64,000 nt of DNA from Thermus antranikianii DSM 12462. Its GTDB lineage: Bacteria; Deinococcota; Deinococci; Deinococcales; Thermaceae. The stretch spans positions 186,001-250,000 of the forward strand of contig NZ_AUIW01000002.1 in the NCBI RefSeq assembly GCF_000423905.1. Direction: 5' to 3'. The first letter of the stretch is position 1. Every line of letters begins with the position of its first letter. This document shows, piece by piece, positions 1-11,552 of the stretch. The notes under the pieces were generated by a model that did no database searches, was not told the DNA's origin, and saw only the letters and a program-made list of their open reading frames with translations. A program made the position numbers and the translations under genes.

Positions 1-222
1 CTTTTCCCGGAGGAAGGCCCTTAGGGCCTCAGCATAGGCGGGGATGGAAGGGGTGAAATCCCGAGGTGCCTGGCTTTCCCCGAAACCCGGGAGGTCGGGG
101 GCCAGAAGCCAGGTCCCCTCGGGAGGGTTCTGCAAAACCTCCCGCCACCACTCCTTGCAGGCAAAGTTTCCATGGACCAGCACCACGGGGACTCCCTTTC
201 CGCTTTCCAGGCAGCTAAGCAT
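1..222 (-). CDS. alpha/beta hydrolase, N-terminal part (runs off window)
   Basis: The 74 visible codons start at the ATG at 222 and read off the left edge. They show the opening of an alpha/beta-hydrolase fold: strand VPVVLVHGNF, whose HGN carries the oxyanion-hole backbone, then APDLPGFGES, the loop after strand 4. The nucleophile and the rest of the catalytic triad lie outside the window. The ATG overlaps the stop of the upstream hydrolase by 8 nt, so the two are translationally coupled and end the acyl-chain cluster. Substrate cannot be read. The fold call is firm; the enzyme class (esterase, thioesterase, lactonase) is open. Confidence 0.8.
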   Translation of the reverse strand, partial: MLSCLESGKGVPVVLVHGNFACKEWWREVLQNPPEGTWLLAPDLPGFGESQAPRDFTPSIPAYAEALRAFLREK

Positions 223-988
223 GGATTTCCTCCAGAAACTTCCTCACGGCTTGGGCGAAGGCCAAGGGGTCCTCCAGGGGGGCCGCATGGCCTGTGGGCA
301 GGGCTTGAAGCTCCGCTCCCAGGGCCTCGGCCAGGGCCTGGGCGTAGGGCTTGGGGGAGAGCAGGTCCTCCTTCCCGTAGAGGACCAGGGCGGGCAGGGC
401 CAGGCTGTGAAGGCGGGGCCTGAGGTCCTCGAGGCTGAGAAACCCTAGAAGGAGCCTTTCCTGGGCCCTCTCGTCCGGGGCCTGGGCGATAAGGGAAGCG
501 AGGCCTTCCTCCGTGAGGAGCTCGGGATGGGCGTTGAGGAAGCCTGCCCCATAGATCCAGGGCAGGGCTACCCTTAGGCGCAAGGGGGTGCCTCCGGTCT
601 TCAGGGCGTGAAGCCAGCTACCCACCTTGGCCCTTAGGGCGGGGTCCAGGTAAGGGGTGGTGCAGGCCAGGACCAGGCTTCGGAAGCGTGTAGGAGCCAT
701 GAGGGCGGCCTGCAGGGCCACGATGCCCCCGTTGGAAAGACCTACCAAGGAGGCCTCCTCCCAGCCCAGTTCCTGCAAGAGGGCGAGGAGATCTTGAGCG
801 TGCGCCTTTGGGGTGTAGGGGCCCTCGGGGGCTTCGCTTTCCCCCTGGCCCCGCATGTCGTAGCGGAGGAGGGTGTAGCCCCCAAGGAGGGGCACCACGG
901 GGTCCCAGCTTTCCAGGCGCTGGAAGAGCCCGTTGAGGAGCACCACCTTTGGCCCCTCTCCCTCCACGCGGTACCTAAGCCTGGCCAT
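215..988 (-). CDS. alpha/beta hydrolase
   Basis: A 257-residue protein of normal length for a single-domain alpha/beta hydrolase. The nucleophile elbow is GLSNGG with Ser85. The loop YDMRGQGES follows strand 4, a late acid is likely in YGKEDLLSP, and the base is His in TGHAAPLEDP. The usual HG of the oxyanion loop reads NG (LLNGLF). Start ATG at 988 has GGGAGG upstream and lies inside the end of the acyl ligase gene (14-nt overlap), so the genes form one operon. Context with a KASIII-like enzyme and an acyl ligase suggests hydrolysis of an acyl or beta-keto/beta-lactone intermediate; that is inference. The Ser nucleophile argues against OleB, which uses Asp. Confidence 0.85.
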   Translation of the reverse strand: MARLRYRVEGEGPKVVLLNGLFQRLESWDPVVPLLGGYTLLRYDMRGQGESEAPEGPYTPKAHAQDLLALLQELGWEEASLVGLSNGGIVALQAALMAPTRFRSLVLACTTPYLDPALRAKVGSWLHALKTGGTPLRLRVALPWIYGAGFLNAHPELLTEEGLASLIAQAPDERAQERLLLGFLSLEDLRPRLHSLALPALVLYGKEDLLSPKPYAQALAEALGAELQALPTGHAAPLEDPLAFAQAVRKFLEEIHA

Positions 989-2453
989 GTTCCGCCTCCC
1001 ACATCCTTTTCAGAGCCTCCTTCTGCACCTTCCCGGGCCCGGACTTGGGTAGCTCCGGCAAGAAGAGGATGTGCTTGGGTACTTTGTACCCCGCCAGCCG
1101 CTCCCGGAGAAAGGCGCGGAGGGCTTCCGCCTCCAGGGGTTCCTTAAGGACCACGAAGGCCACCCCCACCTCGCCCCACTTGGGATCCGGCACGCCCACC
1201 ACCGCTGCCTCCCGCACCGCCGGGTGGTCGTATAGGGCCCTTTCCACCTCCACGGGGTAGACGTTTTCCCCTCCGGAAATGAACATCTCCTTCCTGCGTC
1301 CCACGATGTAGAAACGCCCCCCCTCATCCTGAAAGGCCAGGTCCCCGGTCCTGAGCCAGAGCCTTTCCCCATCGTGGACAAAGACCTTGGCGTTCTCCTC
1401 GGGGCGGCGGAAATACCCTTTCATGACCACGCTCCCCGAAAGCCAAAGTTCTCCGGTTTCCCCTGCCTTGGCCTCCTGACCATCCTCCCGCACCAGCCGG
1501 GCCTTCAGGTGGGGCATGGGCCGGCCCACGCTTTCGGGGTACGCCTCCGCTTCCTCCAGCTCCAGGGTGAAGCAGTTCACCCCGCATTCGGTGAGGCCGT
1601 ACCCCTGCTTGAAGCGGACGCCCTTCCTGCGAAAGGCTTCCCGGACCGGGGCCGGACAAGGGGCCCCGCCGGAGATGGCGAAACGCACGAAGGAGAGATC
1701 GGCCTCGGCGAAGCCCGGGGTTTCCAAGAGCATCTGGAACATGGTGGGTACCAGGAAGAGGAGGGTGGGGCGGTGGGTCAGGGCGAGGTCCAGGTACTCC
1801 TCGGGCCGGAAACGCTCCTGGATCACCACGCTCCCGCCCAGGTAGAGGAGGGGAGTGGCCAGGGCGTTCAAGGCGGCGTGGAACATGGGGGTGGCCAGGA
1901 TGTACCGATCTTCCCGGGAAAGTCCCCAGGAGAAGGCGGTCTGGACGGCGTTAACCAGGAGCTGGCGGTAGGGGATCAGGGCTCCTTTGGGCAGGCCGGT
2001 GGTGCCTCCGGTGAAGAGGAGGAGGGCGGGGTCTTCCAGCCCTACCCGGGCGGCTTCCTCCATTTCCGCCCCCTCGAGGAGGACCTCGAGGGGCAGGGCC
2101 CTAGGATCCAGGGCCTGGGCGATTTCCTGGAAGCCCTCCCCATAGAAGAGCGCCCGGGGCTCGGTATAGGTGTAAAGGGCCTGGAGCTCGGGGAGGCTGA
2201 GGCGGTGGTTGAAGGGAGTAAGGATGTGCCCGAGGAGGGGACCGGCGAAGAGGAGGTCCAGGTACGCCGGGTGGTTCCAGGCGAGAAGACCCACCCGGTC
2301 CCCTTTACCCACCCCCAGGTCCCGGAGGGTTCCGGCGGCCCTTTGCGCCCTTTGGTAAAGCTCGGCGTAGGTCAGCCATGCCCCACGGAACCAGACCGCC
2401 TGGCGCCTTGGATGGTAGGCGGCAAGGCATCCCAGCCAGTTGGGCTCAAGCAT
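975..2453 (-). CDS. AMP-forming acyl-CoA/acyl ligase (ANL superfamily)
   Basis: A 492-residue adenylate-forming enzyme. It carries the phosphate loop FTGGTTGLPKG (about 147-157), the YGLTECG motif, RTGDLAF, the hinge and lid GRRKEMFISGGENVYPVEVE, and a C-terminal PKSGPGKVQK with the likely catalytic Lys. It should activate a carboxylic acid with ATP and pass it to CoA or, as in OleC, close a beta-lactone from a beta-hydroxy acid. Start ATG at 2453 overlaps the end of the KASIII-like gene by 8 nt. Located between a condensing enzyme and two hydrolases, it probably works on the product of the former. Chain length and acceptor cannot be read from sequence. Confidence 0.88.
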   Translation of the reverse strand: MLEPNWLGCLAAYHPRRQAVWFRGAWLTYAELYQRAQRAAGTLRDLGVGKGDRVGLLAWNHPAYLDLLFAGPLLGHILTPFNHRLSLPELQALYTYTEPRALFYGEGFQEIAQALDPRALPLEVLLEGAEMEEAARVGLEDPALLLFTGGTTGLPKGALIPYRQLLVNAVQTAFSWGLSREDRYILATPMFHAALNALATPLLYLGGSVVIQERFRPEEYLDLALTHRPTLLFLVPTMFQMLLETPGFAEADLSFVRFAISGGAPCPAPVREAFRRKGVRFKQGYGLTECGVNCFTLELEEAEAYPESVGRPMPHLKARLVREDGQEAKAGETGELWLSGSVVMKGYFRRPEENAKVFVHDGERLWLRTGDLAFQDEGGRFYIVGRRKEMFISGGENVYPVEVERALYDHPAVREAAVVGVPDPKWGEVGVAFVVLKEPLEAEALRAFLRERLAGYKVPKHILFLPELPKSGPGKVQKEALKRMWEAEHGQA

Positions 2454-3453
2454 GAAGCCCCCCTTCCAGGCGGAGTACCGCTGCCCCGTAGAAGTAGCCC
2501 ACGCCCGCCGCGGCCAGGGCCACCAGGCTTCCCTCCCGCAAAAGCCCCTTCTCCCAGGCCAGCTTCAGGGAGAGGATGGGGTCCAGCTGGCCCAGGTGGC
2601 CAAAGCGCTCCAGGTAGATGGATTGCTCCTCCCTTAGCCTAAGGCCCTCCAGCACCGCCCGGTGGGCTGAGCGCTTCATGTGGAGCAGGGCCAGGTAATC
2701 CAGATCGGCTTCGGTGTACCCTGCTTCTGCCAGGGCTTCCCGTATTACTTCCAGGAAGGTGGGAATAGAGGTGGCGTCCAACCGCTGTTTCATGGCTTCG
2801 GGATCCTCCACGCGCAGGCGGAACGCCGAGAGGTTGCCCGGGGTTAAGGGGTTGCGGGTGCCGCCCACGGGCACCTTGACCGCCAGGGCCAGGGTTGGGT
2901 CCATGCGGTGGGCGAGGCCCAGAAGCCTTAACCCCGGGCCCTTTCGGGTGAGGACCAGGGAAGCACCCCCTGCGGCCAGGTCATAAAGGAAGCGGGTGTT
3001 GGGGTCCAGGTAATCCACCAGGTCCCCGTTGCGGTAGCCTCCCGCCACCAGGACCACCTGCACCTCCTTGTGGGTGGCGAAAAGCCCCCGGGCCACCTCC
3101 AAGGCCCCCATAAGGGAGGCGCACTTCTGGTTGAGGTCCAGCCCCTTGGCCCTCGAGGCCCCAAGGCCCAGGGCCAGGTAAGGGGCTGTGGTCCAGACGG
3201 GGTAATCCTTATATTCCTCCACGATGGAAATCACCCAGTCCACCGCTTCCCCGGGAAGGCCCGCTGCGCCCAAGGCGGCCTGGGCGGCCCATAGCGCCAT
3301 GTCGGCGGGGTGGTCCTTGGGTCCCGGTACGGGTTTTTCCAGGATTCCTAGCTTTTCCCGCACCACCTCGGCAGGCAGATGGGTCCAGGCTGCAATCTCC
3401 TCGGCGGTAACGCGGCTTTCTGGCAGGTAAACCCCAAGGCTGTGCACGACCAT
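2446..3453 (-). CDS. KASIII/OleA-like condensing enzyme (thiolase fold)
   Basis: A 335-residue thiolase-fold protein of the 3-oxoacyl-ACP synthase III group. The nucleophile is Cys111 in LNQKCASLMGAL, at the FabH position. A catalytic His is likely in LLHMKRSAH, but the usual Asn segment (GNxxxAS) reads HLGQLDP, so the third catalytic residue is Gln or is displaced. That makes it a paralogue rather than housekeeping FabH. It probably does a decarboxylative or head-to-head Claisen condensation of acyl thioesters. It heads the operon with the ligase and hydrolases; the promoter (3464-3496) has SARP-like repeats and no -35. ATG at 3453 has no clear ribosome-binding site. Confidence 0.82.
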   Translation of the reverse strand: MVVHSLGVYLPESRVTAEEIAAWTHLPAEVVREKLGILEKPVPGPKDHPADMALWAAQAALGAAGLPGEAVDWVISIVEEYKDYPVWTTAPYLALGLGASRAKGLDLNQKCASLMGALEVARGLFATHKEVQVVLVAGGYRNGDLVDYLDPNTRFLYDLAAGGASLVLTRKGPGLRLLGLAHRMDPTLALAVKVPVGGTRNPLTPGNLSAFRLRVEDPEAMKQRLDATSIPTFLEVIREALAEAGYTEADLDYLALLHMKRSAHRAVLEGLRLREEQSIYLERFGHLGQLDPILSLKLAWEKGLLREGSLVALAAAGVGYFYGAAVLRLEGGLHA

Positions 3454-3463
3454 CCGCTACCCA

Positions 3464-3496
3464 GGTTAGGGTGAGACTGTTACACAGGCGTTACAC
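3464..3496 (-). promoter_or_regulatory. SARP-like activator box and -10 for the KASIII cluster
   Basis: On the minus strand GTGTAAC (3496-3490), N4, GTGTAAC (3485-3479), N9, then TAACCT (3469-3464), ten nt before the ATG at 3453. The heptamers are perfect and at 11-bp pitch; no -35 hexamer fits. The N4/N9 spacing is identical to the boxes at 6505 and 7710. Seen directly; activator binding is inference. Confidence 0.6.
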
Positions 3497-3519
3497 GCAC
3501 GGGGGGTCGGGTCTATACT
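3491..3519 (+). promoter_or_regulatory. sigma-A-type promoter of the first BTAD regulator
   Basis: TTACAC (3491-3496), 17-nt spacer, TATACT (3514-3519), close to consensus. Its -35 is also the 3' part of a GTTACAC repeat, so a protein bound to the repeats that activate the divergent operon would cover this -35. That suggests negative autoregulation. Confidence 0.6.
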
Positions 3520-3539
3520 GGGGGGAATCAAGGGGGAAG

Positions 3540-6491
3540 ATGGCCAAGTCCCACCTCCGCTTGTTGGGAAGGGCTGCCCTGGGGCTAGGGGAGTCTTGGA
3601 TACCTTTGGAGCGCAAGGTGGCGGGGGTGCTGGCGTACTTGGCCCTCGAGGGCCCCACGCCCCGTTCCAAGCTTGCGGGCCTGCTTTGGCCGGAGACCCA
3701 CGAGCGGGCTGCCCGCAACAACCTGGTCCAGTCCCTGCGGAGGCTCCGCAGGGCGGTGGGCGGGTATGAGGCCGTAAGGGGGGAAGGAACCCTCCAGCTT
3801 GCGGAGGACTTGGAAGCCGATGTGACCCGGCTTGTCGTGTCCACCCTACAGGGGAAATACGCCGAGGCAGTGGACCTCGAGGGCGAGTTAATAGGGGGCT
3901 ACGATTACGACGACTGTCCCGACTTTGCCGACTGGCTTCAGGCCGAGCGGGAGCACCTATCTGGCCTGTGGCGGGAGGCTTTGGAATCCGAGGCGAGGCG
4001 CCTGGAGGGGGAGGGTGAGTTTCGCAAGGCTTTAGCCCTGGCCCTGCGCCTTGCGGAGGCGGACCCCTTCTCGGAGGAGCACTTGCGCCGGGTGATGCGC
4101 CTTTACTACCTCCGGGGCGACCGGGGAGCGGCCATGTCCGCCTACCATCACGGCCGGGAGCGGCTTAAGCGGGAACTGGGGGTGGATCCCTTGCCCGAAA
4201 CCCAGGCCCTGGTTCAGGTCATCGAGCGGGGAGCCGTTCTGCCTGGGGCAGGTGGGCGGCTAAGGCGGGAGATTCCTCTTGCCCTTTGGCAACCCCCGGT
4301 GCTGGTGGGCCGGGAGCAGGCCTTGGCCCAGATAGAGGAAGCCTGGGAAGTGGGGAAGCTGGTGTTTGTTGCCGGTGAACCGGGTATAGGCAAGACGCGG
4401 CTTCTGCGGGACTTTGTTAGCCGAAAGGGTTCCTACGTCTGGATGTCGGGCCTACCGGGGGATAAGGGCACGCCCTTCGCCTTTTATGCCCGCGCTTTGC
4501 GGGAAGCTTTTGGGGAGTCTCCCGGGCTGCGCTTGCCCTCTTGGGTGCGGCGGGAGTTAAGCCGTATCCTTCCCGACCTCTTTCCTCTGGACCCACTTCC
4601 CTGGAGGGATCCTGCCGACCGCATCCGTCTCTTTGCCGCTATGGCCGAGGCGGTGGGGGAGCTCCGGAGGCAAGCGGGGGTTTTGGTGATGGACGATTTG
4701 CAGTACCTGGATGCGGCAAGTGCCGAGGCGTGGGCCTACATGCTTTCGAAGCTTGCCCTTGATGCTTCCGGCCCTCGCCGCTACCTCGGCGCCTACCGCC
4801 AGGGGGAGCTTTCAGCTGAAGCGCTGGCTACTGTGGATGGGTTGGTGCAGGCGGGGTTGGCGGTGCGGATCCTCCTCGATCCCCTTCAGCCCGGTGATGT
4901 GGAAGCGCTTTTGGCCTCCTTGGAGCTTCCAAACCTATCGCCTACGGAGCTTGCACCTGCCCTTTTCCGCTATACCGGGGGCATTCCCTTTTTCCTTCTG
5001 GAAACCCTGCGTGTGCTTTGGGAGCTGGGGGAGGGGCCAGAGGCGCCCGGTCGCCTTCCAACCTCCCAGCGGGCCAGGGAGCAGGTGGCGCGCTGCTTGG
5101 GGCTCCTTTCCCCGGCAGCCCTGCGCCTGGCACAGGTGGCAGCCATCTTAGGGGAAGACCTGAGCCTGGAGTTGGCTGCCGGTGTTCTTGAGTGCGCTCC
5201 CCTGGAGCTGGCCCGGCCGTGGGCCGAGCTCGAGGCCGCCCAGATTTTGCGGCAAGGGCGCTTCGCCCACGACCTCCTCCTGGAGGCGGTTAAGGAACGC
5301 ATCCCTGTTCCCCTGCAAGCCCACTTGCACCGCCAGGTGGCCCGGGCCCTCGAGGAGGCGGGGGCCCATCCTGCCCGCATCGCCCAGCACTGGTTGGAGG
5401 GGGGCAGGGAAGAGGTGGCTGCTCGTTTTTGGCTGGCTGCTGGACGGGATTATCAGGCACGGGCCCTCTATGCCGAAGCCAGGGCCATGCTGGAGATGGC
5501 TCTTAGTCACAGCCAAGATCGGCGAAGCGATCTGGAGGGAGCTACACGGGTTGAAGCCCAGCTTCTTCTTGCCGACATCTGCCGTGAGGAGCGGCGTTAT
5601 GGCGAAGCGGATGCCTTGTTGGCGGATCTACTGGACGGTCCCTTACCCCTCAGGGTGCGGGTAGAGGCCCTGCGGGCTAGGGCCTACCTCGCCATCGGCG
5701 ACCCCCTTCGCGCGGCAGGCTACGCCCGCAAGGCCTACCTTCTGGCGCACAGGATGGGGGACGAGGAGCTTTTGCACCTGACCCGTACCGCCTACGCTGC
5801 GGCCCTGTGGGGATTGGGTAAGGTCGCTGAGGCCATACACTTGCTGGAGCCTGAACTGGCCTTGCACCATCCCGATGCCCGCCACCGCATCCGCATCCTG
5901 GCCTATCTGGGGGCGCTCTACGCCCATAGGGGCCGTTTTAGGGAGGCCTACGCCCTTTTGGAGGAGGGTTTCCACCTGGCTCAGGGGCAGGATCCCTACT
6001 GGCGGGTCCTGGTGGCGGCCTTTCTGGTGGGGGCCGATGTGGAGCGGGGTGAGCCCCTGGCCCACTGGGAACTGGCCCAGGCTACTCGGGCCCTGGGGCC
6101 CTTCGACGTGAGCGAGTACCTGGCGTTGGTGATGGCCCGGGCTTGTCTGGAAGCTCACGAGCCGCGGTTGGCACTGGAGCTCCTCGCGGAAAAGCCAGGC
6201 GCGCACCTGGGGCGGGCCTATGCCTGCTTGGGCCTGGCGTATACCTGCCAGGCTCTCCTGGCTTTGGACGATAAGGAGGCTGCCCGGCAGGCCTTGATGG
6301 AAGCCCTAGCCGTGGCCGAGGACCTAGAGGGAGCTCCGCGGGCCCTGGTCCAGGTGGCGGTGGCGGCCTTGCGGCTTGGGGAACCGGTGGCGCAGGCGCT
6401 CTTGGAGCGGATTTCCCCGGAAACCCTAAGCCCTGCAGACCGCAGAAGCCTCGAGGGGGTCGGCCTTGGCTTCGGCATGTACTTACCTTGA
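3540..6491 (+). CDS. BTAD/SARP-type ATPase transcriptional regulator (N-terminal wHTH)
   Basis: A 983-residue regulator counted from the ATG at 3540, which follows AAGGGGG; an upstream GTG at 3471 lies within the promoter. Order: OmpR-like winged helix (about 5-85), BTAD helical domain (about 90-235, with the typical RAARNNLVQSLRRLRRA and ELGVDPLPETQAL), an AAA/STAND ATPase with Walker A GEPGIGKT (279-286) and Walker B VLVMDDLQ (381-388), then a long TPR-like Ala/Leu-rich helical C-terminus. This is the layout of large SARP/AfsR-like regulators. It is transcribed divergently from the KASIII cluster, and heptamer repeats of the sort such proteins bind lie between them. The ligand is unknown. 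Confidence 0.85.
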   Translation: MAKSHLRLLGRAALGLGESWIPLERKVAGVLAYLALEGPTPRSKLAGLLWPETHERAARNNLVQSLRRLRRAVGGYEAVRGEGTLQLAEDLEADVTRLVVSTLQGKYAEAVDLEGELIGGYDYDDCPDFADWLQAEREHLSGLWREALESEARRLEGEGEFRKALALALRLAEADPFSEEHLRRVMRLYYLRGDRGAAMSAYHHGRERLKRELGVDPLPETQALVQVIERGAVLPGAGGRLRREIPLALWQPPVLVGREQALAQIEEAWEVGKLVFVAGEPGIGKTRLLRDFVSRKGSYVWMSGLPGDKGTPFAFYARALREAFGESPGLRLPSWVRRELSRILPDLFPLDPLPWRDPADRIRLFAAMAEAVGELRRQAGVLVMDDLQYLDAASAEAWAYMLSKLALDASGPRRYLGAYRQGELSAEALATVDGLVQAGLAVRILLDPLQPGDVEALLASLELPNLSPTELAPALFRYTGGIPFFLLETLRVLWELGEGPEAPGRLPTSQRAREQVARCLGLLSPAALRLAQVAAILGEDLSLELAAGVLECAPLELARPWAELEAAQILRQGRFAHDLLLEAVKERIPVPLQAHLHRQVARALEEAGAHPARIAQHWLEGGREEVAARFWLAAGRDYQARALYAEARAMLEMALSHSQDRRSDLEGATRVEAQLLLADICREERRYGEADALLADLLDGPLPLRVRVEALRARAYLAIGDPLRAAGYARKAYLLAHRMGDEELLHLTRTAYAAALWGLGKVAEAIHLLEPELALHHPDARHRIRILAYLGALYAHRGRFREAYALLEEGFHLAQGQDPYWRVLVAAFLVGADVERGEPLAHWELAQATRALGPFDVSEYLALVMARACLEAHEPRLALELLAEKPGAHLGRAYACLGLAYTCQALLALDDKEAARQALMEALAVAEDLEGAPRALVQVAVAALRLGEPVAQALLERISPETLSPADRRSLEGVGLGFGMYLP

Positions 6492-6504
6492 ACCGCCCGT
6501 ACCT

Positions 6505-6537
6505 GTCATCCTCCGGTCATCCGGGACCCTCTAGCCT
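6505..6537 (+). promoter_or_regulatory. SARP-like activator box and -10 for the TTHB210-like gene
   Basis: GTCATCC (6505-6511), N4, GTCATCC (6516-6522), N9, TAGCCT (6532-6537). No -35 hexamer is present; the downstream heptamer occupies its place. Same geometry as the boxes at 3464 and 7710. Confidence 0.62.
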
Positions 6538-6554
6538 TGCCTTACCTGGTTGGG

Positions 6555-6570
6555 TTCACCGCTGGGTGAG
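6555..6570 (+). promoter_or_regulatory. conserved leader hairpin before the TTHB210-like gene
   Basis: TTCACC-GCTG-GGTGAG: a five-pair stem plus a terminal T-G pair, just upstream of the GGAGGGGG ribosome-binding site. The copy at 7760-7775 has the same loop but T-A in place of the second C-G pair, a compensatory change. May be an RNA element or an operator. Confidence 0.5.
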
Positions 6571-6578
6571 GAGGGGGA

Positions 6579-6995
6579 ATGAAAAAGCGGGACTTTTTCG
6601 TGCTGGGGGTTGTGGCGTTGGGGCTTTTGGTCGGAGTTCTGGCCCAGCAGGCTGGGGAAAAGGCCAAACGCCTGGGGTTACCGGAGGGTACTGTCCAGCT
6701 TACCCCCTGTGTACCGGGCATGGGCGAGCACTGGGCTAAGCCCTCGGACCTTCCCTTTGGCCCCATCTACGGGGTCATGGGGGAGAAGGTGGTGTTCGTG
6801 GAGATCATGGTTTCCCAGGCCGACTTCGCTGCTGGCAAGTCCTGGACCGAGGTACTGAGGCCCCTAAAGGGGTATGCCATCGACCACGTGGACATAGAGT
6901 TTCTGCCCAAAGGCCATGAGGGTTACGAGGTTCCCCACTACGACATCCACGCCTACTTCGTATCCCACACGGACCACACGAGGTACTGCCCATGA
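6579..6995 (+). CDS. secreted TTHB210-like (DUF5602) protein
   Basis: A 138-residue protein with a signal peptide (MKKRDFFVLGVVALGLLVGVLAQ, cleavage near residue 23-25). The mature part has a CVPGMGEHW segment and ends with IDHVDIEFLPKGHEG...PHYDIHAYF, matching the His-rich PHFDxHFY signature I know from the T. thermophilus TTHB210 family. Its function is unknown; the conserved His and Asp residues suggest a metal site. In T. thermophilus TTHB210 is controlled by an ECF sigma factor, whereas here the promoter has an 11-bp-pitch repeat. ATG at 6579 follows GAGGAGGGGG. The cupin gene lies 68 bp downstream past a hairpin. Confidence 0.72.
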   Translation: MKKRDFFVLGVVALGLLVGVLAQQAGEKAKRLGLPEGTVQLTPCVPGMGEHWAKPSDLPFGPIYGVMGEKVVFVEIMVSQADFAAGKSWTEVLRPLKGYAIDHVDIEFLPKGHEGYEVPHYDIHAYFVSHTDHTRYCP

Positions 6996-7023
6996 GGAGG
7001 ATTTAGACAGGCTCTCTGATCGA

Positions 7024-7045
7024 GGGGCGGGTAGCCCGCCCCTTT
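7024..7045 (+). terminator. hairpin between TTHB210-like gene and cupin
   Basis: GGGGCGGG (7024-7031), loop TAG, CCCGCCCC (7035-7042) then TTT. A very stable eight-pair stem with a short T run, probably a partial terminator that lowers cupin expression relative to the first gene. Confidence 0.6.
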
Positions 7046-7063
7046 GGTGCCTAAGGAGGAGGT

Positions 7064-7510
7064 ATGCAGGCTCTTTGGTTCTTCAACACCTTGGTGCGGG
7101 TGTGGGTTTCGGAGGTGGAGGGCCAGGATGGCCTTTCCGTCCTGGAGCACTGGGCTCCCTATGGGGATTCACCCCCCTTGCACATCCACCACACCGAAGA
7201 CGAGGTCTTCATCGTCCTGGAAGGCGAAGTTCGCTTTTTGGTGGGGGATACCTCCCGGCGCGTTTTACCCTTTGAGGAAATCCTGGCTCCCAAGGGGGTG
7301 CCCCACACCTACCGGGTGGAATCCCCCGAGGGGGCCCGCTGGGTCACGGTCACCGCCCACCGGGACTTTGAGCGCTTTGTGCGGGCCATGAGCCGGCCGG
7401 CGGAGCGGGAGGCATTGCCTCCTCCTGCCGGTCCGCCCACCCCCGAGGAAATGGAGCGGATCGTGAGGATCGCAGAAACCTACGGCATCGAGTTCGTGAG
7501 GGCGTCATAG
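7064..7510 (+). CDS. cupin-domain protein
   Basis: A 148-residue single cupin. Motif 1 is PPLHIHHTEDEVFIVLEGEVRF with metal ligands likely His40, His42 and Glu45 or Glu47; motif 2 is PKGVPHTYRV with His81. A helical tail (about 105-148) follows. Small cupins of this type include quercetinase-like dioxygenases, isomerases and binding proteins; nothing in the sequence picks one. AAGGAGGAGGT lies at good distance from ATG 7064. It shares transcription with the TTHB210-like gene or is partly separated from it by the hairpin at 7024. No signal peptide, so cytoplasmic. Confidence 0.85.
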   Translation: MQALWFFNTLVRVWVSEVEGQDGLSVLEHWAPYGDSPPLHIHHTEDEVFIVLEGEVRFLVGDTSRRVLPFEEILAPKGVPHTYRVESPEGARWVTVTAHRDFERFVRAMSRPAEREALPPPAGPPTPEEMERIVRIAETYGIEFVRAS

Positions 7511-7520
7511 GCGTTGGCGT

Positions 7521-7538
7521 GGGGGATCCAAAACCCCC
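7521..7538. terminator. hairpin after the cupin gene
   Basis: GGGGG (7521-7525), 8-nt A-rich loop, CCCCC (7534-7538), 11 bp after the cupin stop. No T run follows, so termination is uncertain. Confidence 0.35.
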
Positions 7539-7669
7539 ATGGCCACCGCGTACCTGGTAGGGGCTGGGCTAGGCGGGTGCGACTTGGCAAGAGGGCTTGG
7601 ACCGGGGCGGGAAGGGAAAGGCGCCTGTTCGCCAGGCTTGGGGGCTTCCAGACTTTTCTTAGAGGCGCA

Positions 7670-7686
7670 AGGGCCTTTTTGGCCCT
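7670..7686 (+). terminator. terminator-like hairpin before the methyltransferase promoter
   Basis: AGGGCC-TTTTT-GGCCCT, perfect six-pair stem with T5 loop, 23 bp before the heptamer repeats. It would insulate the methyltransferase promoter from upstream transcription. Confidence 0.4.
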
Positions 7687-7709
7687 GGATTTCTAATCCC
7701 CTTGAGCCT

Positions 7710-7742
7710 GTCATCCTCGAGTCATCCAGGGCTATCTAGCCT
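7710..7742 (+). promoter_or_regulatory. SARP-like activator box and -10 for the methyltransferase
   Basis: GTCATCC (7710-7716), N4, GTCATCC (7721-7727), N9, TAGCCT (7737-7742). Same heptamer and spacing as at 6505-6537. An overlapping TATCTA (7733-7738) is an alternative -10. Confidence 0.62.
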
Positions 7743-7759
7743 GATCCTGCCTTGCGGGG

Positions 7760-7775
7760 TTTACCGCTGGGTAAG
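7760..7775 (+). promoter_or_regulatory. conserved leader hairpin before the methyltransferase
   Basis: TTTACC-GCTG-GGTAAG, the counterpart of 6555-6570 with one compensatory pair change. It is followed by AAGGA and an out-of-frame ATG (7778) that opens a 16-codon reading frame ending at 7828, overlapping the methyltransferase start at 7806. Confidence 0.5.
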
Positions 7776-7805
7776 GAATGGACGCAAAAAAGGAAGGTGT
7801 AAAAC

Positions 7806-8846
7806 ATGACCCAGGAAAATCAGCCTAGTCATGCCAATGTCCCGCCGCACGTGGCTATGCTAGAGATGATCTCGGGCTTTTGGATTTCGCGCGCCATCTA
7901 TATCGCAGCGAAACTGGGTATCGCTGACCATCTCCATGACCAGCCTAAAAGCGCCGAAGAACTCGCCGCCGTGACAGGCGTTCATGCGCCATCCCTTTAT
8001 CGTGTGCTGCGTGCGCTTGCAAGCGTGGGCGTGTTTGCCCAAGATAGTGACAACCGCTTCCGCTTAACCCCGCTTTCGGAAACGCTGCGGACCGACGTGC
8101 GTGGCTCGTTGCGGGCTTTCGCCATCGTGGAATTAGGAGAGGAGCATTACCCGGCATGGGGCGAACTGCTGCGCAGCGTAAAGACCGGCGGGGTCGCCTT
8201 CGATCATGTCTTCGGGGTGCCCATTTGGGAATACTTCGCGCGGCATCCTGAGAACGCTAAAACCTTTGATGATGCGATGACCGAGATGACCCTCGCTGTT
8301 AATAACGCAGTTCTATCCAGCTACGATTTTTCATCCATCGTCAAGATTGTGGACGTGGGAGGGGGACACGGCAGCCTCACCGCCGCGATTCTCAAAAGCA
8401 ACCCGGGGATGAAGGGCGTTCTCTTCGACTTGCCGCCCGTGATCGAAGGTGCACGGGCTCGCATCGAAGCTGAGGGAATCGCTGATCGGTGCGAATTAGT
8501 GGGCGGGGACTTCTTCGAGTCCGTACCACGTGGTGGCGATGCTTACATCCTCAAATGGATCATTCACGATTGGGATGACGAGCGTGCCGTCGCGATTCTC
8601 AGGAATTGCCATCGGGCGATGATAGAGAACGGCAAGCTCTTGCTTGTCGAAGCCGTCGTTCCGCCCGGTAGCGAGCCGCATTTGAGCAAGTTCATGGACC
8701 TCAACATGCTGGTTATGACCGGCGGGCGGGAACGCACAGAAGAGGAATACCGGCTGCTGTTAAAAGCAGCCGGCTTCAGGCTCACGAGGATTATTCCAAC
8801 AGGATCGCCAATGAGCGTGATTGAAGGCGAACGTGAACGTGGGTGA
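7806..8846 (+). CDS. SAM-dependent O-methyltransferase (acquired gene)
   Basis: A 346-residue class I O-methyltransferase of the plant-COMT/hydroxyneurosporene type. It has an N-terminal dimerisation winged helix (about 15-105), SAM motif IVDVGGGHGS (about 181-190), FDLPPVI, and the catalytic base His254 in IIHDWDDE. The acceptor is probably a hydroxyl on an aromatic or polyketide-like molecule. Codon use differs sharply from all neighbours (many GAA, GCG, ATT, CGT and AAT codons, visibly lower G+C), a clear sign of recent transfer. It sits exactly downstream of a native-looking promoter and leader that resemble those at 6505-6570. RBS AAGGAAGG lies before ATG 7806. Confidence 0.88.
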   Translation: MTQENQPSHANVPPHVAMLEMISGFWISRAIYIAAKLGIADHLHDQPKSAEELAAVTGVHAPSLYRVLRALASVGVFAQDSDNRFRLTPLSETLRTDVRGSLRAFAIVELGEEHYPAWGELLRSVKTGGVAFDHVFGVPIWEYFARHPENAKTFDDAMTEMTLAVNNAVLSSYDFSSIVKIVDVGGGHGSLTAAILKSNPGMKGVLFDLPPVIEGARARIEAEGIADRCELVGGDFFESVPRGGDAYILKWIIHDWDDERAVAILRNCHRAMIENGKLLLVEAVVPPGSEPHLSKFMDLNMLVMTGGRERTEEEYRLLLKAAGFRLTRIIPTGSPMSVIEGERERG

Positions 8847-8969: not shown

Positions 8970-11552
8970 GTGCCCTACCCGGTGCCCGCCTCGAGGCTCC
9001 TGCCCCCTCGCACGGCCAAGGAGGTGCGGCGGGACCGCCCTCGGCGCCTGGTGGAGGAAGCCTTCCGCCAGAGCCCCGGGGTGGTCCTGGCGGCGGGGGC
9101 GGGGTACGGGAAGACCAGCCTGGCCTCGGAGTTTTCCGGGGTCTACGTGGCCCTGGCGGAGGAGGCCAAGGACCCTGCGGTTTTCCTGTGGCACCTTCTG
9201 GCTGCCTACCAAGGCCGGGCCGAGCTTCAGAGGGTGGCGGAGCTTTTGGAGGCAGGGGCTTGGCCCAGGGCCTTGGAGGCCTTTTTGGGTGCCCTGGAGC
9301 CCTTAGGTTTCCACCTCCTGGTGCTGGATGAGGTCCACCGGGCGGAAAGCCCCGGGGTGCTCAAGGTGGTGCAGGGCCTGGTCCGGCTTCCCGGCCTAAG
9401 GCTCTTGCTTCTCTCACGGAAGGCCACACCCTTTGCCTTCCTCACGGTACTTTCCGAGCGGGAGCTGGCGTTTGATCCCGAGGAGGCCTGCCAGCTTGCC
9501 AAGGCGCTGGCCCCGGAACTTCCAGCCTTTGAAGTGGAACGAGCCCTTTCCCTGGTGAGGGGGTGGCCCCTGGGCTTACGGGTGGTCCTGTTGGCCATGC
9601 GCCGGGGCCTGAAGCCGGAGCTGGCGCTGGAAACCGCCGAGGGGCTATTGGCTTACCTGGCCTATGGCCTTCCCGAGGAAGTTCTGCGGGAGGCCTCGAG
9701 GCTGGCCCTTTTGGGGGAGGTCCCAGAGGCGGAAGGCCAAGCCCTCTTGCCCTATGCCGAGGACCTGCTTCTGGAGAGGCGGGAGGGCAAGCTCTGGTTC
9801 CATCCCCTGGTGCGTGGTGCCCTGAAAACCCTCCTTCCCGAGGCGGAAGCCCGGGGGCTCCTCACCAAGGCGGCGGAGGAGGCCTTGGACCGCGGGGAGG
9901 GGATCCGGGCAGCCGGGTTCCTCCTGGAGGCGGGAAGGCTCGGCCACGTGGCGGATCTCCTGGTGCAGGAGGGATTTTCCTGGTTGGCGCGCGGTTTCAC
10001 CTACAGCGTGTTGCGCCTTTTGGCCCACCTACCGGAAGCCTTGCGCCAAGGGCGGCGCGCCCTCGACCTGTTGGAGGCTGAGGCCTTGCGCCAGGCTGGG
10101 CGCTACCAGGAAGCGGAGGCCGCTTACCAGAAGGCCCTTAGGGCGGGAGAGACCCGGGCCTACTTGGGTCTGGCCCGGCTGTTCCTGGACACCGTGGAAC
10201 CGGCTCGAGGGCGTCCTTACCTGGAGGAGGCCTCGAGGTTGTTTCCCGAGGAAGCCAGGCTTCTCCTGGCGGAGAACCTTCTCAACGAGGGCCGTGTAGC
10301 GGAGGCGGAAGCCTTGGGGTTCTCCGGGCCAAGGCTTCTCCTGAGGCAGGGGAGGCCCAAAGAGGCCCTGGCCCGCCTCAGGGAAAGCGGGGACCCCGGC
10401 CTGCACCGGCCGCCGCAGAACCATCGGGAGAGTACCCTTCTCCGGTCCCTTTTGGAGTGCGTGGCAGGGGATGCGGAGGAGGGCCTCCGGTGGGCGGAGC
10501 GGGGGCTTTGGGAGGCTGAGGTGCTGGGGAGTCCTTTCGGCATGAGCCTGGCCCAGGCCAGGAGGGGGCATGCCCTTCTGGTTTTGGAACGCTTGGAGGA
10601 GGCCAAGGCGGCCTACCAGGCCGCCTTGGCCATGGCGGAAGGGGGTCCAGCGCGGCTTAAGGTGGAAGCCCTGGGGGGTCTGGCTGCCCTGGGGGATGAG
10701 GAGGCCTACAGGGAAATGGTCCGCCTGACCCGGACCGCCGGGGATCTTTGGGTGGAAGGCTTCCTCACCCTTATGGTGGCGTTGGCTTGGCTTCGGCGGG
10801 GCGAGGTTTTTTCCTTGCCCACCCTGCCCCTTTTGGACCCCTTCCTTCAGGCTTTGGCCGAGGCTTACCCCTTTGGGGATGGATGGGAAGACCTTTTGCG
10901 GGTTTACCCCTTCCTGGCCCACCGGACGCTTTTCTCACCCCCGGTTTCCCGGGTACGCCGGGCCCTTTGGCGGCTTGGCCGCCTTCCCGTTCCCTACCAT
11001 CCCGGGGTGCGGGTGGAGATACGGGTCCTCGGGGGATTTGAGGTGCGGGTGGAGGGACGGCCTGTGCGGTTCCGCCGGGATAAGGCCCGGCTTCTTTTGG
11101 CCCTTCTGGTGGCCGCCCAATGGGAAAAGGAGGATCTCCTCGAGGCCCTGTCGGTTTCCCCTGGGGAGTTCCGGGTGCTGTGGTGGGAGGTGGTCAACGC
11201 CCTGGAGCCCGGCCGGCCCAAAGGGGCCAGGCCCTACTTCCTGCGCCAGAAGCCCTATGGCCTTTTCCGCCAGGTACCGGAGCTATACCTGGACCTGGAG
11301 GATCCCAAGGCACCCCTCGCCCCACCCTTCCTGGGGCTGGACCATCCTTTTTTGGAGGAGGTTTCCAGGGCTTACCTGGAGGAGCGGCGGAGGGAGCTTT
11401 TGCAAAGCCCTAGGCTCGAGGACTGGCTTTTGGCCTTGCGCCTGGATCCCCTGGATGAGGAGGCTCTGCGGCGGCTTTACGGCACGCCTGCTCAAGAGGA
11501 AGCCCTTCTCCTTCGGCAACGGGCTTTGCAGGAGCTGGGTTTGGAAGGGTGA
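8970..11552 (+). CDS. MalT/BTAD-type ATPase regulator (C-terminal wHTH)
   Basis: An 860-residue STAND-type regulator with reversed domain order relative to the one at 3540. Walker A is AAGAGYGKTS (41-50) and Walker B LLVLDEVH (116-123), as in MalT. A long TPR-like region follows. From about 680 there is an OmpR/SARP-like winged helix (IRVLGGFEVRVEGRPVRFRRDKARLLLALL), then a short BTAD-like helical end (about 770-860). Start is GTG 8970 with GATAAGG upstream. It lies directly after the acquired methyltransferase and near the GTCATCC-repeat promoters, so it is a candidate activator of them. The inducer is unknown. Confidence 0.83.
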   Translation: MPYPVPASRLLPPRTAKEVRRDRPRRLVEEAFRQSPGVVLAAGAGYGKTSLASEFSGVYVALAEEAKDPAVFLWHLLAAYQGRAELQRVAELLEAGAWPRALEAFLGALEPLGFHLLVLDEVHRAESPGVLKVVQGLVRLPGLRLLLLSRKATPFAFLTVLSERELAFDPEEACQLAKALAPELPAFEVERALSLVRGWPLGLRVVLLAMRRGLKPELALETAEGLLAYLAYGLPEEVLREASRLALLGEVPEAEGQALLPYAEDLLLERREGKLWFHPLVRGALKTLLPEAEARGLLTKAAEEALDRGEGIRAAGFLLEAGRLGHVADLLVQEGFSWLARGFTYSVLRLLAHLPEALRQGRRALDLLEAEALRQAGRYQEAEAAYQKALRAGETRAYLGLARLFLDTVEPARGRPYLEEASRLFPEEARLLLAENLLNEGRVAEAEALGFSGPRLLLRQGRPKEALARLRESGDPGLHRPPQNHRESTLLRSLLECVAGDAEEGLRWAERGLWEAEVLGSPFGMSLAQARRGHALLVLERLEEAKAAYQAALAMAEGGPARLKVEALGGLAALGDEEAYREMVRLTRTAGDLWVEGFLTLMVALAWLRRGEVFSLPTLPLLDPFLQALAEAYPFGDGWEDLLRVYPFLAHRTLFSPPVSRVRRALWRLGRLPVPYHPGVRVEIRVLGGFEVRVEGRPVRFRRDKARLLLALLVAAQWEKEDLLEALSVSPGEFRVLWWEVVNALEPGRPKGARPYFLRQKPYGLFRQVPELYLDLEDPKAPLAPPFLGLDHPFLEEVSRAYLEERRRELLQSPRLEDWLLALRLDPLDEEALRRLYGTPAQEEALLLRQRALQELGLEG

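Follow-up and report, generated by a model that had tools for sequence, protein, structure and literature searches.

The 64,000-nucleotide stretch analysed here (the window: Thermus antranikianii DSM 12462, contig NZ_AUIW01000002.1, positions 186,001 to 250,000) appears to hold two separate SARP-type activator circuits, a reading to which we assign a probability of roughly 0.8. In one of them, the large regulator encoded at 3540 would act on paired GTCATCC heptamers (box B); in the other, the regulator encoded at 8970 would act on paired TGTAACR heptamers (box A). The elements involved, in positions of the window, are the following.

3540 to 6491, plus strand: large SARP-type regulator (winged helix, BTAD and ATPase domains), proposed reader of GTCATCC
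8970 to 11552, plus strand: MalT-like ATPase/TPR regulator of 860 residues, proposed reader of TGTAACR
10998 to 11549, plus strand: C-terminal SARP-fold domain of 8970 (winged helix and helical domain; model pLDDT 93.6)
6505 to 6522, plus strand: box B1, GTCATCC-TCCG-GTCATCC (sequence, conservation, shuffle test)
6532 to 6537, plus strand: -10 element TAGCCT of box B1, 9 bases from the box; predicted start near 6544
7710 to 7727, plus strand: box B2, GTCATCC-TCGA-GTCATCC (sequence, conservation, shuffle test)
7737 to 7742, plus strand: -10 element TAGCCT of box B2, 9 bases from the box; predicted start near 7749
3478 to 3495, minus strand: box A, TGTAACG-CCTG-TGTAACA, direct repeat at 11-bp pitch, conserved upstream of the family's KASIII (3-oxoacyl-ACP synthase III-like) genes; 8970 is the presumptive reader
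3463 to 3468, minus strand: -10 element TAACCT of box A, 9 bases from TGTAACA and 9 nt from the KASIII start codon

The principal evidence comes from a comparison of 50 genomes of the family, in which pattern searches were accompanied by reversed-pattern controls. The exact repeat GTCATCC-N4-GTCATCC is present in 8 of the 50 genomes (reversed pattern, 0 matches), and the same box with its -10 element, at up to 2 mismatches, in 19 genomes at 54 sites (reversed control, 1), with the consensus GTCATCC-TCCA-GTCAT(G/C)C. Exact matches to GTAAC-N6-GTAAC-N10-TANNNT likewise number 54, in 37 genomes (control, 0). Thus, the repeats are conserved in orthologous promoters, one of the points on which the original prediction had staked itself. 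Moreover, the two boxes follow different regulators almost one to one: GTCATCC sites are found in 18 of 18 genomes with a 3540 homologue (cut-off E<=1e-100) versus 1 of 32 others, and the GTAAC box in 36 of 37 genomes with an 8970 orthologue versus 1 of 13 others. The p-values, which ignore phylogeny, are 1e-12 and 1e-9 for these pairings against 0.009 and 0.018 for the cross-associations across all genomes, and 3e-4 and 2e-5 against a non-significant 0.27 within Thermus; both pairings recur within a second genus (4e-4 and 1e-3). Conservation, co-occurrence and fold thus lend strong support to the earlier proposal of SARP-like promoters beside SARP-like regulators. The regulon that it placed in Thermus also stands, at too small an extent, as both motifs define regulons family-wide.

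The original prediction had paired 3540 with GTGTAAC and 8970 with GTCATCC, "or the reverse". The first version, which we regard as scarcely credible, draws on adjacency: 3540 adjoins the GTGTAAC box in the window, where the two are divergent neighbours, and in genomes G007 and G014, and box B2 is followed, after about 1.2 kb, by 8970. However, a GTAAC box occurs in 20 genomes that lack a close 3540 homologue, 8970 is encoded in 14 Thermus genomes with no GTCATCC site at all, and G045 has 3540-type regulators and GTCATCC sites with neither 8970 nor a GTAAC box. Elsewhere in Thermus, furthermore, the gene divergent to the GTAAC box is 8970; in most Thermus genomes with both genes, and also in other genera, its orthologue is divergent to the KASIII gene with the box between them, and in the window and G007 the 3540 cassette is placed between the KASIII box and 8970. 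In G014 (L041, G014:C34) stop codons interrupt the 3540 orthologue; the KASIII box there is intact, and the genome has 0 GTCATCC sites. The comparative genome data therefore contradict 3540 as the GTGTAAC reader, which we rejected, and the double dissociation across the 50 genomes supports the reverse; the comparison assigns GTCATCC to 3540 and TGTAACR to 8970 as their most likely readers, judging from the distribution of genes and motifs.

A different kind of reader for the GTCATCC repeats has to be considered. Pho boxes and related OmpR-family sites are heptamer direct repeats at an 11-bp pitch just upstream of the -10 and are bound by winged-helix proteins; the heptamer-N4-heptamer repeats of OmpR-family regulators contain TGTCAT, and the Escherichia coli Pho box is CTGTCAT. 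With CTGTCAT present at both GTCATCC sites of the window, the same pitch, a similar place before the -10 and readers from the same winged-helix superfamily, these repeats might be PHO-type boxes whose reader is a PhoB-like response regulator of the OmpR family. We tested this reading and rejected it as very improbable: the presence of the motif does not track PhoB-like proteins in Thermus, which are encoded in 27 of 27 genomes (none scoring above the PhoB cut-off), whereas the motif is found in 3 of the 27, all with 3540. The GTCATCC sites instead cluster around 3540 homologues, 31 of the 54 lying within 5 kb of one.

By its sequence, the preferred reader of GTCATCC, 3540, is an AfsR-type large SARP. 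It has a Pfam BTAD domain (54.7 bits, residues 124-228) as well as an AAA domain, matches the EmbR (5e-7, positions 120-242) and AfsR (1e-6, positions 35-256) profiles, and shows the N-terminal succession of winged helix and BTAD together with a predicted operator of heptamer direct repeats at 11-bp pitch. A separate search of named genomes with the DNA-binding region retrieved homologues from Meiothermus rufus, M. granaticius, M. hypogaeus, Calidithermus roseus and C. chliarophilus. The same region of the Thermus homologue in G015 (L040) clusters with that of C. chliarophilus (L260) and not with those of other Thermus (support 99/98), which suggests transfer of the cassette between genera. 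Further afield, two GTCACGC-TCCA-GTCATCC-N9-TACGCT sites lie close to a homologue in a Deinococcales genome, and a scan for GTCATCC repeats near SARP homologues of myxobacteria and Burkholderiales gave nothing convincing.

The description of both regulators as BTAD proteins holds for 3540. For 8970 it fails at the level of Pfam, where no BTAD match is found, but the C-terminal fold is AfsR/EmbR-like: the six best PDB fold matches of the last 184 residues are all AfsR and EmbR (best E 8e-4), and the model displays the winged helix and BTAD fold of SARPs. The relation was found by fold comparison only, a sequence search of this C-terminus against PDB returning nothing significant. SARP domains are expected at the N-terminus, and this one comprises the last 184 of 860 residues. 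The match to MalT is weak (38.7 bits versus a cut-off of 537; E 3e-10) and confined to residues 8-215, TPRs occupy the middle of the protein, and the C-terminal LuxR-type helix-turn-helix and family score that define MalT/LAL proteins are lacking. From the weak MalT match, the TPRs and the modelled C-terminal fold, 8970 is, as far as the model goes, a MalT-like protein with a C-terminal SARP-fold domain.

All three promoters exist in the sequence. Both plus-strand sites are letter-perfect as first described, GTCATCC-TCCG-GTCATCC-N9-TAGCCT at 6505-6537 and GTCATCC-TCGA-GTCATCC-N9-TAGCCT at 7710-7742. On the minus strand, the repeat GTGTAAC-N4-GTGTAAC (3496-3479) is real and the N9 spacing claimed for it is not: TAACCT lies at 3468-3463, after a gap of 10, the hexamer at N9 is CTAACC, and a scan for N9 accordingly did not return the site. 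The register kept in relatives is TGTAACR (3495-3489 and 3484-3478), in which the spacing is N4/N9, so that one architecture is common to all three promoters once the box A heptamer is shifted by 1 base. Direct reading bore out the absence of a -35 element: at none of the three does a TTGACA-like hexamer stand about 17 bp upstream of the -10. Perfect heptamers at pitch 11 with N9 and TANNNT occur at 2 sites in the window, compared with a mean of 0.05 and a maximum of 1 in 60 dinucleotide shuffles, in none of which one heptamer was used twice, as GTCATCC is; the same scan of the window at pitches 8-10 and 12-16 gave 0 sites.

With the -10 element set as -12 to -7, the heptamers occupy -39 to -33 and -28 to -22. 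AfsR contacts -40 to -33 and -29 to -22, the first 8 bp of 11-bp repeats at -40 to -30 and -29 to -19, and as a side-by-side dimer it contacts sigma region 4 where the -35 element is poor (PMC10936776). The window heptamers fall inside these contacts; the 9 bp from the last heptamer to the -10, compared with the 8 bp taken as typical of SARPs, come within one base of the AfsR contact positions, depending on the register. By this analogy, an AfsR-like binding mode is the most likely one for the Thermus regulators. Two molecules of the 3540 product would bind next to each other on the same face of the DNA at GTCATCC-N4-GTCATCC, replacing the -35 element, and would touch sigma region 4, with transcription starting at the TAGCCT -10 elements before 6579 and 7806. 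The 8970 product, by means of its C-terminal SARP domain, would bind TGTAACR-N4-TGTAACR and activate the operon of KASIII, acyl-CoA ligase and hydrolase. We infer direct binding, activation as opposed to repression, the sigma contact and the transcription starts.

Several observations, besides the neglect of phylogeny in the p-values, weigh against two such circuits. Eighteen of the 54 GTCATCC sites have no 3540 homologue within 20 kb on the same contig; G034 lacks a close 3540 homologue yet has a GTCATCC site, a GTAAC site in G022 lies beside another SARP-like regulator in a genome devoid of 8970, and in G017, which encodes 8970, no GTAAC site is found. For the DNA-binding region of 3540 the AlphaFold model is of poor quality (pLDDT 65), so that the weight for 3540 rests on the sequence matches; EmbR and AfsR also top the list in a fold search with this low-confidence model. 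Dependence on an activator is also uncertain, because TANNNT by itself can act as a promoter in Deinococcota (PMC12340547). That property, the overlap of the box with the -35 position and the presence, in a third SARP-like system, of TTAACG repeats around the start of the regulator itself as well would suit SARP-like proteins that bind the boxes as repressor operators or at mixed sites instead of plain activator sites. We consider this unlikely: the fixed N9 to the -10 and the missing -35 fit the activating geometry of AfsR (PMC10936776), and repressors do not require a fixed spacing.

The operon behind box A consists of three genes.

2446 to 3453, minus strand: 3-oxoacyl-ACP synthase III-like gene (KASIII), first in the operon (NCBIfam NF005308, above cut-off)
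975 to 2453, minus strand: acyl-CoA ligase (AMP-binding) gene, second
215 to 988, minus strand: alpha/beta hydrolase gene, third

In most Thermus cases the KASIII start codon follows the -10 at a distance of about 8-9 nt, as expected of leaderless genes, which are common in Deinococcota and have a TANNNT -10 (PMC12340547); the KASIII mRNA from the box A promoter is probably leaderless. The predicted box A targets are KASIII genes, joined in other genera by a separate alpha/beta hydrolase gene, and 5 of 31 predicted targets have a hydrophobic, signal-peptide-like start by a crude test.

Three genes are associated with the two box B sites of the window.

6579 to 6995, plus strand: first target of box B1, a TTHB210-like protein whose N-terminus resembles a signal peptide; the box also precedes its orthologues in G007 and G015
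7064 to 7510, plus strand: cupin-domain protein, 3' of 6579
7806 to 8846, plus strand: O-methyltransferase (PF00891), target of box B2

The same crude test finds a signal-peptide-like hydrophobic start in 44 of 53 predicted box B targets versus 54 of 132 background open reading frames of the same loci, a background that includes the box targets themselves. Among these targets are lipoproteins, cupins, the TTHB210-like protein and, within the window, the O-methyltransferase; no paper on TTHB210 was found in the open-access literature. Between 6579 and 7064, a GC-rich inverted repeat, GGGGCGGGTAGCCCGCCCC, followed by TTT (7022-7045) resembles an intrinsic terminator, so that expression of 7064 may depend on read-through alone; in G015 and G027 its relatives each come immediately after a separate GTCATCC box. 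In the window segment 7710-8846, box B2 with its leader is similar to the promoter that drives a cupin gene right behind the regulator in G007 and G030, and the O-methyltransferase gene behind it differs in base composition, as if a foreign gene had been put under a pre-existing SARP promoter. A hairpin just 5' of the Shine-Dalgarno sequence can form in both box B leaders of the window (6540-6571 and 7745-7777) and in those of G007 and G015 (z -1.4 to -5.0); the compensating changes in it include TTACC-GCTG-GGTAA versus TCACC-GCTG-GGTGA. We did not adopt this 5'-leader hairpin as part of the mechanism, since it may only mirror the common descent of the promoters.

Other SARP-like regulators of the family are accompanied by other heptamers. 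In two sets of loci selected solely for protein homology, perfect heptamers followed by N9-TANNNT are most numerous at pitch 11, with 6 and 18 distinct sites versus 0-1 at other pitches. A third SARP-like regulator of about 570 aa, present in several Thermus, has TTAACGC in its divergent promoter, where all four exact Thermus sites lie. TTAACG repeats at 11-bp pitch, with N9 to TANNNT, are seen in this promoter at L016, L017, L020 and L024 (about 1335-1440), and L017 and L020 have an extra run of them right at the regulator's own start. Other SARP paralogues (L268, L271, L263; L043:10636) are accompanied by further heptamers at the same spacing, CTAACGC in two Calidithermus species and GTCACAG and GCCACGC in one case each. 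In the genome without 8970 mentioned above, a CGTAACG-N4-CGTAACG box is divergent to another SARP-like regulator (L249, G022:C3 about 265226). The recognition helix differs by group, ARNNL[AVS]Q.LRRL for GTCATCC and ARNNLRQ.LFTLRR for CTAACGC, and in the tree the regulators with CTAACGC fall into a supported group of their own.

Conceivably, and in our estimate at slightly below even odds, the Thermaceae, and possibly the Deinococcota as a whole, follow a "one SARP, one heptamer" code, in which the frame heptamer-N4-heptamer-N9-TANNNT is fixed and heptamer and recognition helix change together; when the 3540 cassette was inserted between the KASIII box and 8970, 3540 would also have come to lie next to the box read by 8970, which may place one SARP under the control of another. 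Work on SARPs has centred on actinobacteria, where they activate antibiotic pathways, and our search of the open-access literature found no paper on SARP and BTAD with Thermus or Deinococcus, which does not prove absence, nor one on HilA as a precedent outside actinobacteria. Here, the same fold and promoter geometry are kept in another phylum, where several regulators each pair with a different DNA word. Thermus has a well-studied RNA polymerase and genetic tools, and both the recognition specificity of SARPs and the replacement of the -35 contact by an activator become testable there; the boxes also offer candidate orthogonal promoters for work with thermophiles.

With respect to known systems, the GTCATCC boxes share the repeat layout of Pho boxes but do not follow PhoB-like proteins in Thermus. 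MalT and other LAL proteins bear a LuxR-type helix-turn-helix at the C-terminus; 8970 is weakly MalT-like in its N-terminal part and has mid-protein TPRs, but its C-terminal domain is SARP-like. The SARP-LAL protein PimR of Streptomyces natalensis, like the Thermus regulators, joins a SARP domain to a large ATP-binding module, and its operator consists of heptamers with 4-nt spacers, two of which are needed for binding (PMC5930380); its SARP domain is N-terminal, whereas the SARP-fold domain of 8970 is C-terminal. The closest parallel is the AfsR/SARP family (AfsR-afsS of Streptomyces coelicolor, PDB 8HVR, 8JKE and 8K60; EmbR, 2FEZ), in which, as in 3540, winged helix and BTAD are joined to ATPase/TPR modules, direct repeats of the same 11-bp pitch stand in place of the -35, and the afs box lies within about 1 base of the same position relative to the -10 (PMC10936776). 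The Thermaceae, however, belong to another phylum, their heptamers are unlike those reported for Streptomyces, and, with no antibiotic cluster in view, the targets are mostly predicted exported proteins for box B and the acyl-CoA/KASIII operon for box A.

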